A stretch of DNA of 22,675 nucleotides. Source: a virus. Position 1 is the first letter of the stretch; each line of letters begins with the position of its first letter. The position numbers and the translations under genes were made by a program. The notes below the pieces were generated by a model. The model worked only from the letters and a program-made list of their open reading frames with translations. It did no database searches and was not told the DNA's origin. Shown here piece by piece: positions 11,250-20,503 of this stretch. The DNA lies in IMG/VR virus record IMGVR_UViG_3300046313_000144, positions 1 through 22,675 of that record; one strand, 5' to 3'.

Positions 11250-13757
11250 CTATCCTCCTACAGTGTATAGGTTCTGTCCTAATACTGAGTTTACTTTTTG
11301 TCCATCTAAGTGAACTGGTTTTCCTTGTTTAGTTGCTGCAATAAGTTCTCTTAGTAGTGAAACTACTTCTCCACTATCTCCTCCTCCGCTATTGCCTGCT
11401 AGGCTAGTGCCTCCCATAATAATATCATCTTTTCTGAACTTAAGTGGTTTTTGACCTGGACGCATAATGAAATCCTCTGCTACCTCTGGTCTTTCACCAA
11501 AGAACATATCTCCTAGTGCATCACCTGCCATTCCTCCTGCCATTCCTCCTGCAACGGTTCCTACTCCTGGTAAAAGTGCTGATCCACCTAGTCCTCCTAA
11601 GAATGAACCTCCTCCTGATAGAGCAGCTCTTCCTACAGATTCCATATTAAATCCTCCATCTGCAAATTCCATTCCGGCACCAAGTAGTGCTCCTAACATT
11701 GGAATACGCTTAAGTCCTCCTTTTGCTAATCCCTTTAGCATACTTCCTCCACCTGAGCGTCTTAATGCTCTTGCCATTACTTTTGGATTCTTAACTAAAG
11801 TCTTAAGCTGTTTACCTATACCTGCACTCTTTCCTCCTCCTAGTGATTCAGCGACATCTCCTATTGCTGAGGATCCTCCTCCTTCTCCTCCGCCTCCTAC
11901 TTCTTTGGTGAATATAGGTCGTTTTTCTGTCTCACCTGGTTTACCTGATATAAGGTTCTTTACTCCGTTGATACCTATCATAACAGCGGCTGCACCAGCG
12001 ATTGCTGCTGCGGCTCCTCCTGCTAATCCTACTAGGTATTTTACTATTGGATTTTTGGCCATAGTCTCCAATAGCCCACTTATTAAGTTTGCTGCTGACT
12101 CTAATGGACCTGCGATCATAGATTTGAATGACATAGTCAAACTATCTACCGATTTGTTTATTTTTCCTTGGGCATCTAATTGCTGCTCTGCTAGAGTAAC
12201 GTTCTCTCCTCTAAGTGCTAGTTTTTCTAGTTCTGCAGCTTTTTCGTACTCTCCGTTTGCCTTAAGCTGGTCTAATTTTCTAGTTAAATTAGTTCTCTCA
12301 CTAACTCCTAGTTTTTCTAACTGCTGTGCTTTAACTAATGAATTAGCTAATTCATCTGTAGATAATCCCATAGACTTAGCTAACGCATCTTGTTGGAGTA
12401 CGTTCATGCTCTGGAACTTGGCTAGACCTCCTGTCTGCTTTAACATTTCTGCAGCGGCTTCTGCTGTCTTACCCTGTAGGGCTAGTGCTCTTGCTTTTTC
12501 TAAGTTAAGCTCTTGACCTGTTAGTAATTCTGCTTCTAACTCTGCTGAAATTGAGTCTTCAAAGTTAAGTAAACCACTAGCCATGTTCTTGGCTTGTTCT
12601 AGGTTGATACCTAATTTCTGAGTTTGGATTACTGCTTGCGCAATTAGAGTTGGGTTATTTCTATACTGTGCTGCTAATTGCCCACTTGTTTTTAATACCT
12701 CTTGAAGTACTTTTTTGTTATTAAGTACTCCTTTATTAGTCCTACCTACTCCATCATAGATTGCTTCCTGGGATTGTCCTGTAAGCAATGAGTATTCGTA
12801 TAGCTTTGCGGACTCCTCTGCTGCCAATCCTGTAACTTGCATCAACTTAGCTTGCGTTGCTAATACGTCTGCAGAAAAAGTTGCTGATGTTCCTAAGGAT
12901 TCGTTTAAGTTGTTATTTGCTGAAGTTAGGTCGTTGTAGTTTGCAAACAGATCATTTGTAGTCTGCTGCATACTCATAAACTCCATACTCAAGCCCTTAG
13001 CCTGTGCTGTGGTTAGTCCTAAGTTTTTTTGTAATTCAAAGGTCTTACTACTAAACTCTGTACCTATTTTATATAAGGTACTAAACGTTTTTAGTAGTAA
13101 CCCTAAACTTACTAAAGGATCTGATAGGTTTTTCTTAAGGTCAGAACCTAGCTGCTTAAATGCAGCACCCATTACCTTAGTTCGATTAGTTCCCTCTTGT
13201 GCTGCTTTTCTCTGAGCTGCTGCTAGAGCACTTTCGGCATCTAGGAAGTTACCTAGTACAGGTATTTTTGCTATTCCTTTTAGTATTCCTCCGGTTACTC
13301 CTAAGTTCTTCTGTATTCTCTCTGCATAATTAAGTTGATCTGCTAATAGAGCATTTTGCCCTCCAATACTTTCTAGTATTTCTTGCTCAGCCTTAGCCTT
13401 CTGATCTTCCGTGATAAGACCAGCATTAAGTAGTGTATTTAAGTTTCTCTGTGCAGAGAGTTGTTTTAATTGTAATACTTGTTGAGTTTTTTGTATATCA
13501 GCTACCTTAGCTGTTCCTTGTGCAAGTTTTAGTGTATTTCCTAAAATTGCTTCAGAACCTCTAGCTATCTCCCTAATACTCTTAGTTAGGTTATTGCCAA
13601 AGATTTGAGATACTCCCTGAGACTCTTCTCGTATGTCTCGTATGGCATCCTTAATAGATCCTGATAACCTATCAGATATGCTTAATAGCTGATCTTCAAG
13701 ATATCCTAACTCTTCGTTAACATCTTTTATATCTTTTCTAGGATCTGTAGTAGCCAT
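11250..13757 (-). CDS. Tail tape measure protein, gp29-like position
   Basis: An 835-residue protein that sets tail length by spanning the tube lumen before DNA ejection. The first ~240 residues are helical and coiled-coil-like with many Gln, Leu and Lys. A central helical region contains repeated KA/LE-rich segments (for example LEAELLTGQELNLEKARALALQGKTA, split in shorter helices). A hydrophobic glycine/alanine stretch lies at about 569-598 and a second glycine-rich one at about 703-748; such segments are typical of tape measures, which insert into the host membrane. The position directly after the chaperone pair is the classic one. At the usual ~1.5 angstrom per residue, 835 residues suggest a tail near 125 nm. 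The long plus-strand frame opposite it is a codon-bias shadow. Confidence 0.88.
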   Translation of the reverse strand: MATTDPRKDIKDVNEELGYLEDQLLSISDRLSGSIKDAIRDIREESQGVSQIFGNNLTKSIREIARGSEAILGNTLKLAQGTAKVADIQKTQQVLQLKQLSAQRNLNTLLNAGLITEDQKAKAEQEILESIGGQNALLADQLNYAERIQKNLGVTGGILKGIAKIPVLGNFLDAESALAAAQRKAAQEGTNRTKVMGAAFKQLGSDLKKNLSDPLVSLGLLLKTFSTLYKIGTEFSSKTFELQKNLGLTTAQAKGLSMEFMSMQQTTNDLFANYNDLTSANNNLNESLGTSATFSADVLATQAKLMQVTGLAAEESAKLYEYSLLTGQSQEAIYDGVGRTNKGVLNNKKVLQEVLKTSGQLAAQYRNNPTLIAQAVIQTQKLGINLEQAKNMASGLLNFEDSISAELEAELLTGQELNLEKARALALQGKTAEAAAEMLKQTGGLAKFQSMNVLQQDALAKSMGLSTDELANSLVKAQQLEKLGVSERTNLTRKLDQLKANGEYEKAAELEKLALRGENVTLAEQQLDAQGKINKSVDSLTMSFKSMIAGPLESAANLISGLLETMAKNPIVKYLVGLAGGAAAAIAGAAAVMIGINGVKNLISGKPGETEKRPIFTKEVGGGGEGGGSSAIGDVAESLGGGKSAGIGKQLKTLVKNPKVMARALRRSGGGSMLKGLAKGGLKRIPMLGALLGAGMEFADGGFNMESVGRAALSGGGSFLGGLGGSALLPGVGTVAGGMAGGMAGDALGDMFFGERPEVAEDFIMRPGQKPLKFRKDDIIMGGTSLAGNSGGGDSGEVVSLLRELIAATKQGKPVHLDGQKVNSVLGQNLYTVGG

Positions 13758-13785: not shown

Positions 13786-13813
13786 CAAAAGGCATCATTT
13801 TTTAGACGCCTTT
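13786..13813 (-). terminator. Terminator-like hairpin at the end of the chaperone pair
   Basis: AAAGGCGTC pairs with GATGCCTTT (9 bp, one G-U) around an A/T loop; the stop codon of the chaperone extension is inside it. The tail is only TTTT. It sits directly upstream of the TATTTATA motif of the tape measure gene. Confidence 0.5.
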
Positions 13814-14121
13814 GTACTATAACTGGGTGATATTGCTTTAGAAACTACTTCTGGTGGTGATATTTTATTTTTCACAGACTGTGGTAGCTCTTCTTCTGTA
13901 TTGTTTTGTTGTTCAAAATACTCCTTCATAGTGTTGAAGGTGAATCTTCTTAGCCAGATTGGCATGTTGTATACTGTTTCCCAACTGTAACCTCCATTGC
14001 CATTGAACACTATTTCGTGTATCTGTCTATATAAGTAGGTCCTATAGTCCGGACTCAGGCCAAAAAAAGCTCGTAGTAAACTGAACATTGACGTCCTCCT
14101 CAACGCCATCTGAGAATTCAT
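13795..14121 (-). CDS. Tail assembly chaperone, C-terminal (frameshift) part, gp51/T-like
   Basis: An open frame of 108 codons that overlaps the upstream chaperone by 80 bases in the +1 frame. It ends just before the tape measure gene. The useful part starts after the T7 run: FGLSPDYRTYLY, a central WETVYNMPIWLRRFTFN segment and a charged tail. The arrangement matches lambda G/GT and the T4 gp26/gp51 chaperone pair. I infer that the main product is a fusion of 243 residues of the upstream frame with 88 residues of this one (331 residues by +1 shift, 332 by -2). Independent starts exist: ATG at 14121, and ATG at 14088 preceded by AGGAGG at 14095-14100. These are alternatives, but the neighbouring genes do not use Shine-Dalgarno sites. 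Confidence 0.7.
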   Translation of the reverse strand: MNSQMALRRTSMFSLLRAFFGLSPDYRTYLYRQIHEIVFNGNGGYSWETVYNMPIWLRRFTFNTMKEYFEQQNNTEEELPQSVKNKISPPEVVSKAISPSYSTKASKK

Positions 14122-14791
14122 ACCTGATTTTGGTATCCATTCCTGGGTTTATCTTGTTGTAGTATTCTCTGAATGCTTTTGAATCTCTTGATAAAAATGC
14201 AGTATCTACAAACTGTCTTACTACTGATCTTTCGTAGTTTCCGTTTACTGAAAGTATCATGTACTTAAGACGTGTTGTTAGGTCGTGATTGTCATTTTTA
14301 TTAAGTTTTTTCAATCCTGCCAATTCAGCATCGATATCTTTATCGTCCTTTTGTGTTAGGAGTTTGAAAGTGATCGTGTTATCTGTATGTGGTAATTTAA
14401 ACTCAAACTCATTCTTCCCCTTAGTCTTAATCAACGTAATGTCTAGTTCCTTAGGTTTTAGTTGTGTTAAGTCAACTTCCACTACTTCTCCTGCATAGCC
14501 AAAGCTATACTCTTTTCCATATCCCAATATACGTGCAGCCATCATAATAGCATCCTTATCTCCTAGAAGTAGGTCATTATAATCTACCTTAGATACTATT
14601 AACGATTGTAGTAGTTTGTCGATAACTACGCCCTGTTGTATGTAGTTTTGGTTTGTTAAGATATCCTCTTCCCTAGCAGTCATGTACTTAATCTCAACTT
14701 TTCCTGATGATAGTTCTGAGTCTTTTGGATAAAGTAATCCCTTTGAAGGAAGCTCTACCATTTCGGTTGGTAGGTTAAATTTGTTTTCCAT
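14042..14791 (-). CDS. Tail assembly chaperone / baseplate hub gp26-like protein
   Basis: A 249-residue protein beginning ENKFNLPTEMVELPSKG, with MTAREEDILTNQNYIQQG at about 37-54 and a GKEYSFGYAG segment near 92. This resembles the T4 gp26/phage tail-assembly-chaperone group, whose N-terminal half binds the tape measure protein. Its stop (14042-14044) lies about 18 bases after a run of seven T in which the frame can shift into the 108-codon frame. The gene has its own TATTTATA motif (30 bases before ATG) and a terminator-like hairpin upstream of that. Naming it gp26-like rests on the N-terminal pattern and position between tube and tape measure. Confidence 0.78.
   Translation of the reverse strand: MENKFNLPTEMVELPSKGLLYPKDSELSSGKVEIKYMTAREEDILTNQNYIQQGVVIDKLLQSLIVSKVDYNDLLLGDKDAIMMAARILGYGKEYSFGYAGEVVEVDLTQLKPKELDITLIKTKGKNEFEFKLPHTDNTITFKLLTQKDDKDIDAELAGLKKLNKNDNHDLTTRLKYMILSVNGNYERSVVRQFVDTAFLSRDSKAFREYYNKINPGMDTKIRYEFSDGVEEDVNVQFTTSFFWPESGL
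14062..14068 (-). other. Probable programmed frameshift site (T7 run, +1 or -2)
   Basis: On the coding strand the zero frame reads AGC TTT TTT TGG CCT and stops 18 bases further on. The second frame reads GCT TTT TTT GGC CTG. A tRNA-Phe on the second TTT can re-pair perfectly one base forward or two bases back, and either move enters the 108-codon frame. Frameshifting between the two chaperone frames just before the tape measure gene is established for lambda (-1), Mu-type (-2) and PSA (+1) phages. No strong downstream pseudoknot is visible; a 4-bp GTCC/GGAC hairpin is possible. RNA polymerase slippage on the T run would have the same effect. Confidence 0.65.
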
Positions 14792-14876: not shown

Positions 14877-15503
14877 CTACTCTATCTTCCAGCCTTTTTT
14901 AAATTGTCCTGGGTTGTTCCTATGTCTGTGTTGCAGTGTTGCGTAAGCTATCCCTATTTGATTAGATATGTCTTGGTAGGATTGCTCTACATATGTTCTA
15001 CCGTCCTCAAAGGTAACTGTGTACGGACCTTTTGATGCTAATTTTAACCCCCTATTTCTCTCTGAAATACTGTTTGATATTTTTGCTCGACCTTCTTCCG
15101 TTATGTCTGATTTCATTCCTCTAAATACTCTTGAGGAGTTGTTTATATTACCTTTTAGTGCTATCGATATTTTCTCCCTATGGGATATACTTTTTTCACT
15201 TTTCCATAGATCTTGCAGAATTCTTCTTGCTTCTCCATACTCCTCTTTTGTAATTTTCCTCTTACCGTCAAAGGAAATTCTATGAAAAGCCCATAGCATC
15301 ATTTTTCCATAGATTGAATGTCCTTTCCAATACTCTGCCAGTATTTTATGAACTGTAAAGTGTTCTTCGGGAGTTAACAGTACCGTTGTCGATTTCTTAT
15401 CAAAACTTTTAGGAACGATATGATGTGCCTCATAGTAGGTCCCTTGTCCTTTTTTTCTACCTTCTTTTATTACTTGTCTAATAATTTTAAAATACTCTTC
15501 CAT
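14877..15503 (-). CDS. Free-standing HNH homing endonuclease with NUMOD3-like and HTH regions
   Basis: A 208-residue protein. Residues 22-60 carry the HNH core: YYEAHHIVPKSF (H27, H28) and LLTPEEHFTVHKIL (H48, H52). Residues about 106-145 hold NUMOD3-like DNA-binding repeats (HREKISIALKGN, then EEGRAKISNSISE). The C terminus (about 162-208) reads FEDGRTYVEQSYQDISNQIG and ends in FKKGWKIE, the style of a helix-turn-helix module of homing endonucleases. Such genes nick or cut DNA at a target in phages lacking the gene and spread by repair. It interrupts the run from tail tube to chaperone, has a terminator-like hairpin on each side and its own TATTTATA motif, so it appears to be an inserted cassette. 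Confidence 0.9.
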   Translation of the reverse strand: MEEYFKIIRQVIKEGRKKGQGTYYEAHHIVPKSFDKKSTTVLLTPEEHFTVHKILAEYWKGHSIYGKMMLWAFHRISFDGKRKITKEEYGEARRILQDLWKSEKSISHREKISIALKGNINNSSRVFRGMKSDITEEGRAKISNSISERNRGLKLASKGPYTVTFEDGRTYVEQSYQDISNQIGIAYATLQHRHRNNPGQFKKGWKIE

Positions 15504-18280: not shown

Positions 18281-20503
18281 TTAATTTAATTTATTTAACA
18301 TATATTTTTCTGCGTTCTTAATTCTATCACTCGTATCCTCCATACCAGTTAATATGACTGGATCAACTAAGTCTGGATGTACCCACCAATCCTCATAATT
18401 TGAGATGTTATTTGGTGCTATATCCGATACTACTAATTGGTATCCTTTTGATTGTAAATACTCTCTTGACTTTTCTCTATATGATCTAGTTACATCTGCA
18501 TAGTAGTCGTGTTCGAAAGTAATCACTGCAAACCTGTACTTGTCTAGTGGTATCATCTTTAGAATATCCAACGTAACTGATGGTGGTTCACAATCTACTT
18601 GTAAGTAGTCGATATCTGTTGTATCGAAGTTCTCTCCAATAAATACGTCATAGTCTACTTTTGTAGCATCTGTTAGTACTATTTTGTTTGCTCTCTGTGC
18701 TTTAAACTTCTCTACCTCATGTGGTAGAATCTCTAACGATACTCCTGTCCAGTCGTAGTTCTTTTCAAGCAATGCTGTATTGTTTCCATGAAAAGGATCT
18801 GCTGCTCCTATCTCTAAGTACGTACCTTTTTTCTTACCATCCAACATCGATAGTATAAACATATCTTGGTATGTCTGAGAGTAGTTGCTTACAATCTTAT
18901 CTGAGTCTTTGAATTTGAATCGTAAAGATGAGTGCATCGATGATGTATATCTTAGGAACGGATCTGGTCCTGATCCTAGTGATGTGATATTGTTTTGTAC
19001 TAACTCGACGTATCTTGGATTCATACTACCTCTCTGTAGAACTAGCTCCTGCAATAACTCCCTTGCCTCCATTGTTCTACCAATCCACCAAGCAGCTACT
19101 GCTTTTTGGAAGGTTAACATATAGCTTCCCAAGTAGTCCGCATCTAGTATGCTTGGTTGTGAGTGCCCATGTGTCAATCCCATACTTGCCATTACATATG
19201 CATCTTGCCACTCTTGTTTTGATTCATACCACATACTTAAGTATAGGTAGGCCTCAGGTCTTGTAGGATCGTTTGCTAATGCATTTTGGTAAGCATGTTT
19301 TGCACTATAGGGTCTTCTTCCCTGTTTATCGATACACTTTGCTACCCTAATTAATGCTGTGTAGGGTTCATTACTATATTCTGCACTTCTTAGGTAGAAC
19401 GATAATGCTGATGAGTAGTCTTGTGTGTGTTCGTAGTATCTCCCTACTTGAAAGTTAAGTGTTGGATCGAATGGATTGTTAAGGTAGTCTGCAATCAACC
19501 CCTCTTGTCTAGTTTTACCTGTATACTCATTGTGCTCTAATCCTAAAAAGGTATTAAGGTAATCTACTGGTATCTCTAGTAGAAATGAAGTTGTATCCTG
19601 GAATGCGAATGTAACTAGCATTTTACCCCTATGTAGTGCTATTCCACAAGCAAACTCAATTCTTGCAGTCATGAACTTAAAGTCCTCAGTAACGGTTACG
19701 ACATTCCAGTCCTTATCCCAAACTATGAACCTATGGTAGTATTGTCCATCCTTACGTCCATTCTCGTTGTTCCAAAGATCAACCTCATGTGTAAGTGCTA
19801 TCCTATAATCTCCAAAAGGAATTACTTGTGATCCTCCTCTTACATCCCTAGCGAACTCCTTAGTATTTTCTTTAAGGATTACTGTCTCTGATGTGTTAGT
19901 AACTGGATCTACTTTAACGATCTCTAAAGGGAAAGTCCACTTAACGTAGTGGTACGGCATATCCACAATAGGCATCCAGTTTTTCTCACAATACGTATCT
20001 GCAGGTGGTTCAATTCTATTTCTAGTTACCTCTGCATTGTTGACTATTTGTGATAGTTCCATTCTACCTACCCCATTTGTTGTAGTGTCTCTCCTTACTC
20101 CTGAGTATAGTAGCTTGTTATCCCATTTAGTTATTCTAACATCCTCTAGTCCTACAAACTCCCAAAGTGGTTTTACATCCAACTTAGTTGTATCTACTTT
20201 TGCAGATGACACTATTTCTAGTGTATTTGGATCTAGTTTACATAGGTAGTTGGTGGTTGTAAGGGTAATATCATCCTCAGGGTTTAGGTACGCTAATGGT
20301 CCCCATTTACTTTGGAATTTCTGCTCACCTTCACTATGATACAGCATGTAGTTTATGTGTCTCAAGTTTAGGTAGATGTCGCCTCCCTCTACTAGAATAG
20401 ATGGATTAATTTGAGGTAGTCCTTGGGTTTGAGAACTTGGAAGAATTAGAGGTTTAATAAACCCTCCATTATCTATGACCTGTTTACAAAAATTGTCTAA
20501 CAT
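18281..20503 (-). CDS. Three-domain enzyme: glycosidase-like beta-propeller, TPR region, FkbM-type methyltransferase
   Basis: A 740-residue fusion. Residues about 35-320 resemble five-bladed propeller glycosidases/phosphorylases (GH43/GH130-like): FVGLEDVRITKWDNKLLYSG near 116-135, EKNWMPI at 173-179, RGGSQVIP at 222-229, YYHRFIVWDKDW at 255-266 and IEFACGIALHRGKM at 282-295. Residues about 350-485 are helical TPR-like repeats (YYEHTQDYSSALSFYLRSAE; YQNALANDPTRPEAYLYLS). Residues about 540-715 are an FkbM-type SAM-dependent methyltransferase: SQTYQDMFILSML, then YLEIGAADPFHGNNTALLE with E564-I-G-A as the SAM loop, VDCEPPSVTLDIL, and ITFEHDYY. This suggests methylation of a sugar on a glycan recognised by the propeller. 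A TTG-N20-TATATTA promoter candidate precedes it. Confidence 0.8.
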   Translation of the reverse strand: MLDNFCKQVIDNGGFIKPLILPSSQTQGLPQINPSILVEGGDIYLNLRHINYMLYHSEGEQKFQSKWGPLAYLNPEDDITLTTTNYLCKLDPNTLEIVSSAKVDTTKLDVKPLWEFVGLEDVRITKWDNKLLYSGVRRDTTTNGVGRMELSQIVNNAEVTRNRIEPPADTYCEKNWMPIVDMPYHYVKWTFPLEIVKVDPVTNTSETVILKENTKEFARDVRGGSQVIPFGDYRIALTHEVDLWNNENGRKDGQYYHRFIVWDKDWNVVTVTEDFKFMTARIEFACGIALHRGKMLVTFAFQDTTSFLLEIPVDYLNTFLGLEHNEYTGKTRQEGLIADYLNNPFDPTLNFQVGRYYEHTQDYSSALSFYLRSAEYSNEPYTALIRVAKCIDKQGRRPYSAKHAYQNALANDPTRPEAYLYLSMWYESKQEWQDAYVMASMGLTHGHSQPSILDADYLGSYMLTFQKAVAAWWIGRTMEARELLQELVLQRGSMNPRYVELVQNNITSLGSGPDPFLRYTSSMHSSLRFKFKDSDKIVSNYSQTYQDMFILSMLDGKKKGTYLEIGAADPFHGNNTALLEKNYDWTGVSLEILPHEVEKFKAQRANKIVLTDATKVDYDVFIGENFDTTDIDYLQVDCEPPSVTLDILKMIPLDKYRFAVITFEHDYYADVTRSYREKSREYLQSKGYQLVVSDIAPNNISNYEDWWVHPDLVDPVILTGMEDTSDRIKNAEKYMLNKLN

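Follow-up and report, generated by a model that had tools for sequence, protein, structure and literature searches.

According to the review of Atkins et al. (2016), the G/GT-type frameshift of long-tailed phages is conserved "except T4" (PMC5009743). In phage lambda, a short chaperone, gpG, and a shift-extended form, gpGT, are encoded upstream of the tape measure gene (PMC5009743), an arrangement that resembles the one described here. The shift is −1 in lambda, −2 in Mu, and likely +1 in HSTV-2, and these systems differ variously from the present one in shift direction, slip codon, and sequence family. SPP1 uses a −1 shift for its tail chaperone gene 17.5 and a +1 shift for its tail tube gene 17.1. 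Among T4-like phages, −1 poly-T signals have been described (PMC12846349), and Vladimirov et al. (2022), as cited in PMC10885494, identified T4-like chaperones and found that some phages have a short and a long gene. The closest mechanistic parallel comes from influenza A PA-X, in which a P-site tRNA-Phe slips +1 from UUU to UUC at UCC_UUU_CGU; the authors of that work predicted a wider UUU_C class (PMC3498833).

Here, we describe two overlapping frames, A and B, from an uncultivated virus. A preliminary description had proposed that they are joined by a +1 or −2 frameshift. From comparison of homologous loci, we find it very probable that they are a tail assembly chaperone pair expressed by programmed +1 ribosomal frameshifting, which would yield A and an A-B fusion.

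Results

Two overlapping frames immediately before a tape measure gene

The window, i.e., the whole stretch of DNA that was analyzed, comprises 22,675 bases and is a fragment from IMG/VR (IMGVR_UViG_3300046313_000144). We verified on its minus strand the positions previously given for A, B, their 80-base overlap, the T run, the distance to the stop of A, the AGGAGG, and the ATG (Table 1). The overlap is 80 nt when counted from the ATG of B and 107 nt when counted from the upstream stop in the B frame. Tail tube and sheath genes lie upstream of A. The gene next to the pair, previously called a tape measure gene, is indeed similar to the gene annotated as tape measure in Flavobacterium phage immuto (26% identity, E 5e-34), and the G/GT-type trait of two overlapping frames immediately before the tape measure gene is present.

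The window also holds a homing endonuclease gene (phrog_655, E 4e-22; 14877-15503) between the tail tube gene and A, and a 740-aa gene (18281-20503, minus strand) upstream of the tail sheath gene that matches a beta-1,4-glycosyltransferase (phrog_13126, E 2e-8). A 349-codon open frame (11467-12516, plus strand) runs antisense to the tape measure gene; since several relatives also have long antisense open frames, reaching 478 codons, it is probably a product of composition.

Table 1. Features of the A/B locus, in coordinates of the window
Feature	Position	Strand	Details
Gene A, putative short tail assembly chaperone (T4 gp26 / PF12322 type)	14042-14791	minus	249 codons / 249 aa; stop TAG 14044-14042
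Frame B as ATG ORF	14121-13795	minus	108 codons; +1 relative to A
T run (seven T)	14068-14062	minus	zero frame AGC TTT TTT TGG; stop of A 18 bases on
Candidate shift site TTT TTT TGG (zero frame)	14060-14068	minus	UUU then U/C in all +1-layout loci
First predicted post-shift codon GGC	14061	minus	P-site tRNA-Phe on UUU would re-pair +1 on UUU
B extension, predicted C-terminal domain of long chaperone (GLSPDYR...)	13795-14061	minus	three helices; T4 gp51 C-terminal counterpart
ATG in B frame behind AGGAGG	14086-14088	minus	competing start; spacing AGGAGG-6 nt-ATG
Shine-Dalgarno-like element AGGAGG	14095-14100	minus	30-35 nt upstream of second UUU codon
Tape measure protein gene	11250-13757	minus	directly downstream of A/B; similarity to immuto tape measure

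Protein family and folds of A and B

The tail had been called T4-type, which holds at the level of the protein family. A matches phrog_150 ("baseplate hub"; E 2e-10) and PF12322, the family of T4 gp26 and gp51 (E 7e-5); the latter match, at 23.0 bits, is 1.5 bits under the cut-off of 24.5, which is exceeded by the relatives from LIS04, SagM-GXN1, and RM378. We folded A and B apart with AlphaFold2. The best viral fold matches (BFVD) of A (pLDDT 93.5) are baseplate hub/gp26-type proteins, including one from Bacillus phage SP-15, and B forms a module of three helices whose core is predicted confidently (core pLDDT about 94). A PDB fold search with A returned nothing significant: the HK97 tail assembly chaperone (gp13, 2ob9_B) came at rank 12 (E 3.1, prob 0.30, TM 0.40 of target), a hint at most. 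A PDB sequence search with the fusion profile gave zero matches.

Within this family, A is the counterpart of T4 gp26 and A-B that of gp51. T4 differs in having two complete, separate genes and no frameshift, as previously stated; we found both genes 26 and 51 in T4 and in several other Straboviridae. In immuto and the other named relatives (the window being a fragment), the gene is single copy and the two-gene T4 arrangement is absent. A second set of phages (cyanophages, pelagiphage HTVC008M, Cr30, and phiM12) is like the window in having one PF12322 gene with a downstream B in the tail region, a poly-T junction, and homology throughout, but their B, the "baseplate hub assembly catalyst" ORF, occupies the −1 frame, with a canonical U_UUU_UUY heptamer at the junction and often an ATG directly behind it. 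The profile of these −1 fusions matched T4 gp51 (E 2.7e-17) and, colinearly through B, that of the +1 fusions (E 6.5e-15); gp51 against the +1 fusions directly gave E 1e-4. When the profile of 26 fusions was compared directly with gp51, the match was weak (Prob 2.7, E 0.017) and became convincing only through the cyanophage-type fusions, and direct BLASTP of B against T4 gp51 found no match. The B of P-SSM2 and the C-terminal part of gp51 both match phrog_634 ("baseplate hub assembly catalyst"). Because the profiles are colinear across gp51, the −1 fusions, and the +1 fusions, we regard gp51 as the in-frame counterpart of the +1 fusion.

The +1 layout and its slip site are conserved among relatives

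We collected relatives by IMG/VR scans seeded with A of the window, RM378, LIS04, Mel-JY01, and a huge phage, together with phage records. The 183 usable loci were reduced to 103 non-redundant ones at 90% identity over 180 nt; deeper scans added one locus with the RM378 seed and two with the LIS04 seed. A locus was scored as having the +1 layout if B was open in the +1 frame for at least 25 codons beyond the stop of A. This relation was retained in 99 of the 103 (L066, which runs into a contig end, was classed apart), and a layout so recurrent is more than chance. Across the 99 loci, the +1 frame stays open past the stop of A for a median of 71 codons, vs 10 codons for the −1 and 5 for the zero frame. 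Named hosts of the relatives include Flavobacterium, Microcystis, Rhodothermus, Bacillus, Listeria, and Streptococcus. The isolate immuto (L048/L081) has the same +1 layout, with B annotated merely as a 36-aa ORF encoding a hypothetical protein.

The alignment of homologous loci that had been suggested as a check shows that the slippery site and the overlap are conserved, with variable neighboring codons. At the junction, every one of the 99 loci carries UUU in the zero frame with U or C as the next base. Around the slip codon assigned by our script, the codons read TTT TTT TGG (73 loci), TTT CTT TGG (12), CTT TTT TGG (3), TTC TTT TGG (3), and TTT TTT TAC (2), and TTT TTT CAC, TTT TTT CGT, TTC TTT CGT, GAG TTT TTT, ACC TTT CTA, and AAC TTT CTA occur once each. 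Thus, what is conserved of the reported run of seven T is UUU and then U or C; the seven T themselves are not, being interrupted as TTTCTTT in 12 loci, TTCTTTT in three, TTTCTA in two, and TTCTTTC in one. Nucleotide conservation at the site is in large part a consequence of dual coding, for FFW in A and FFG in B. The A-site codon at the slip is usually UGG and is not a stop codon. By sequence, a P-site UUU followed by U or C makes the site a candidate for the UUU_Y slip class (+1, PA-X type). The −1 heptamer class does not fit: B is +1 to A, and just 3 of the 99 loci have a T as the base preceding the run. Searches for RNA structure up- or downstream of the site as a stimulator gave z-scores the same as those of control regions.

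A single forward slip of tRNA-Phe could account for every locus

A −2 shift leads into the same frame as +1 and would make the junction one Phe longer. The run TTTTTTT permits re-pairing of the P-site tRNA after a −2 slip, and Mu provides a natural −2 precedent (PMC3498833, PMC5009743). The relatives nevertheless make this reading improbable. At the UUU chosen by the script, the −2 codon is UCU, CCU, AGU, or ACU in seven loci (L171, L176, L178, L083, L058, L086, and L084), none of which pairs with tRNA-Phe, although L084 would still pair if the shift took place at its second UUU. Re-pairing after a +1 slip finds UUU or UUC in all 99. Since −2 is broken in 7 of 99 loci and +1 is always possible, a single slip of tRNA-Phe from UUU to UUY explains every locus, and the alternative between +1 and −2 left by the preliminary description resolves towards +1.

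CUU_U occurs in 12 loci, and in the immuto clade a CUU_U slip, known from prfB, is also possible. One member of that clade, L058, reads TTT CTA TGG, so that only UUU_C is left there.

Many loci lack a start codon from which B could be initiated

The preliminary description had named an independent start as the competing explanation, with B a separate protein initiated at the internal ATG behind AGGAGG. The window does have AGGAGG-6 nt-ATG in the B frame, a good Shine-Dalgarno (SD) arrangement, and an independent start is possible in this one phage; moreover, B really is encoded separately in three relatives (L044, L181, and L186). Across the family, we judge this reading to be slightly less probable still than the −2 shift, for several reasons. 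First, the start is lineage-specific: an SD-preceded ATG in the B frame before the site occurs in just 3 of 99 loci, and the AGGAGG-ATG of the window is absent from its 76%-identical relatives L003-L013. Second, 35 of the 99 loci have no ATG, GTG, or TTG in the B frame between the upstream stop and the first post-shift codon, and the whole of B is devoid of them in L115, L143, and L075. Third, 22 loci lack such a start before B codon 27, and their codons 8-27 show a coding type of substitution (56% at third positions, 18% at second positions), which argues that these codons are translated. Finally, an SD-like element is kept in 27 of the 40 loci in which the +1 frame is closed between element and site. 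An SD-driven independent start of B as a general rule is therefore out.

Loss of the slip site coincides with gain of a start codon

Three relatives serve as natural controls. The site is lost in L044, L181, and L186, and it is precisely in these three that B has been given a start ATG of its own. L181 reads TTC TTG TAT and starts B two bases after the stop of A, L186 reads TTC CTT TGG and starts B five bases past that stop, and L044 reads TTC TTC TGG. A maximum-likelihood tree of A places the three losses among lineages that frameshift, as two independent events. Loss of the slip codon is thus accompanied by acquisition of a start, as predicted for a functional slip site. Homologues with a clean stop and a separate start, or with the T run lost, had been named beforehand as evidence against a frameshift; both exist, but always together and in these three loci, and so they support the frameshift, as do the conserved +1 layout and the missing starts. 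Since B is encoded on its own in these loci, not every lineage strictly needs the fusion.

In L181 and L186, where A and B are separate and nearly adjacent, the chaperone may work without fusion or by another route. In L044, an ORF that by eye resembles a GIY-YIG homing endonuclease (L044:4811-5410) lies between A and B.

Slippage of RNA polymerase on the T run, such that some mRNA is one U shorter, is a far weaker rival to the ribosomal +1 shift. The window and many relatives have the seven T on which it could occur, but the same layout is found at the interrupted sites listed above, where no homopolymer is long enough to cause it. Homopolymers are error-prone and the window is a metagenomic fragment, but an artifact of sequencing or assembly is refuted in practice by the identical offset in 99 non-redundant loci, including the isolates immuto, Mel-JY01, and RM378 and sites that are not homopolymers.

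An SD-like element lies upstream of the slip codon

AGGAG, GGAGG, or AGGGG occurs at −40 to −20 from the slip codon in 67 of 99 loci vs a background of 3.1%. The 5-mer typically lies 27-36 nt upstream, an unusual distance, with the element at −36 to −31. We noted a local synonymous codon bias around this position: GAG makes up 69% vs 23% in the body of A, GGG 59% vs 7%, and AGG 56% vs 10%, and the bias fades with distance. The distance of the element from the slip codon matches neither the prfB nor the dnaX geometry, and SD sequences are not recognized by Bacteroidia ribosomes (PMC9976891). We suggest that this distant element, about 30 nt upstream, may help the +1 shift.

In the −1 type phages L198, L199, and L202 (P-SSM2, S-PM2, and Cr30), about 9 nt separate GGAGGG from the U_UUU_UUY heptamer downstream of it, which resembles the spacing of the dnaX stimulator.

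Discussion

We propose that most ribosomes would pass the shift site in frame, terminate 18 nt later at the stop of A, and release the short chaperone. Some would pause with UGG in the A site, whereupon tRNA-Phe would slip one base forward, from UUU to UUU or UUC, and translation would proceed into B to give the long A-B chaperone. By analogy with lambda gpG/gpGT, from which we infer the chaperone role of A and A-B, the tape measure protein would be coated by many copies of the short form and few of the long one, whose B domain would recruit the tail tube subunit.

Function and strategy of such a pair are known. Shift direction, slip codon, and distribution are apparently undescribed in the literature searched, the full text of Vladimirov et al. 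2022 aside; judging by its title, that study argues for a different mechanism of chaperone production in T4-like phages. A slippery fusion in a T4-type tail had been expected to be notable. This stands insofar as T4 itself is unshifted, but such a fusion is not unprecedented in other T4-like phages, in view of their −1 poly-T signals (PMC12846349).

Two loci, L083 (TTC TTT CGT) and L090 (TTT TTT CGT), even share the UUU_CGU of PA-X. The likeness is at the level of mechanism only, since here the ribosomes are bacterial, the gene is a structural phage gene, and the A-site codon is usually UGG. We think it rather more probable than otherwise that the T4-type chaperones are one homologous family with four strategies: a +1 shift at UUU_Y (this clade, from several bacterial phyla), a −1 shift at U_UUU_UUY (the cyanophage type), two full genes (T4), and two non-fused genes (L044, L181, and L186). 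In the same proposal, the +1 class would be the bacterial counterpart of the UUU_C class of PA-X, and it may be aided by the SD-like element about 30 nt upstream.

The evidence points to frameshifting in a large branch of the T4-type family, in the less common +1 direction and at a simple UUU_Y site where RNA structure was undetected. One annotation is corrected as a result: B of immuto, now listed as a 36-aa hypothetical protein, is the B frame of the pair. If our reading is true, the family offers roughly one hundred naturally varying +1 sites in bacteria, and its +1, −1, two-gene, and split-gene members would form a natural series for the gain, redirection, and loss of recoding in homologous proteins.
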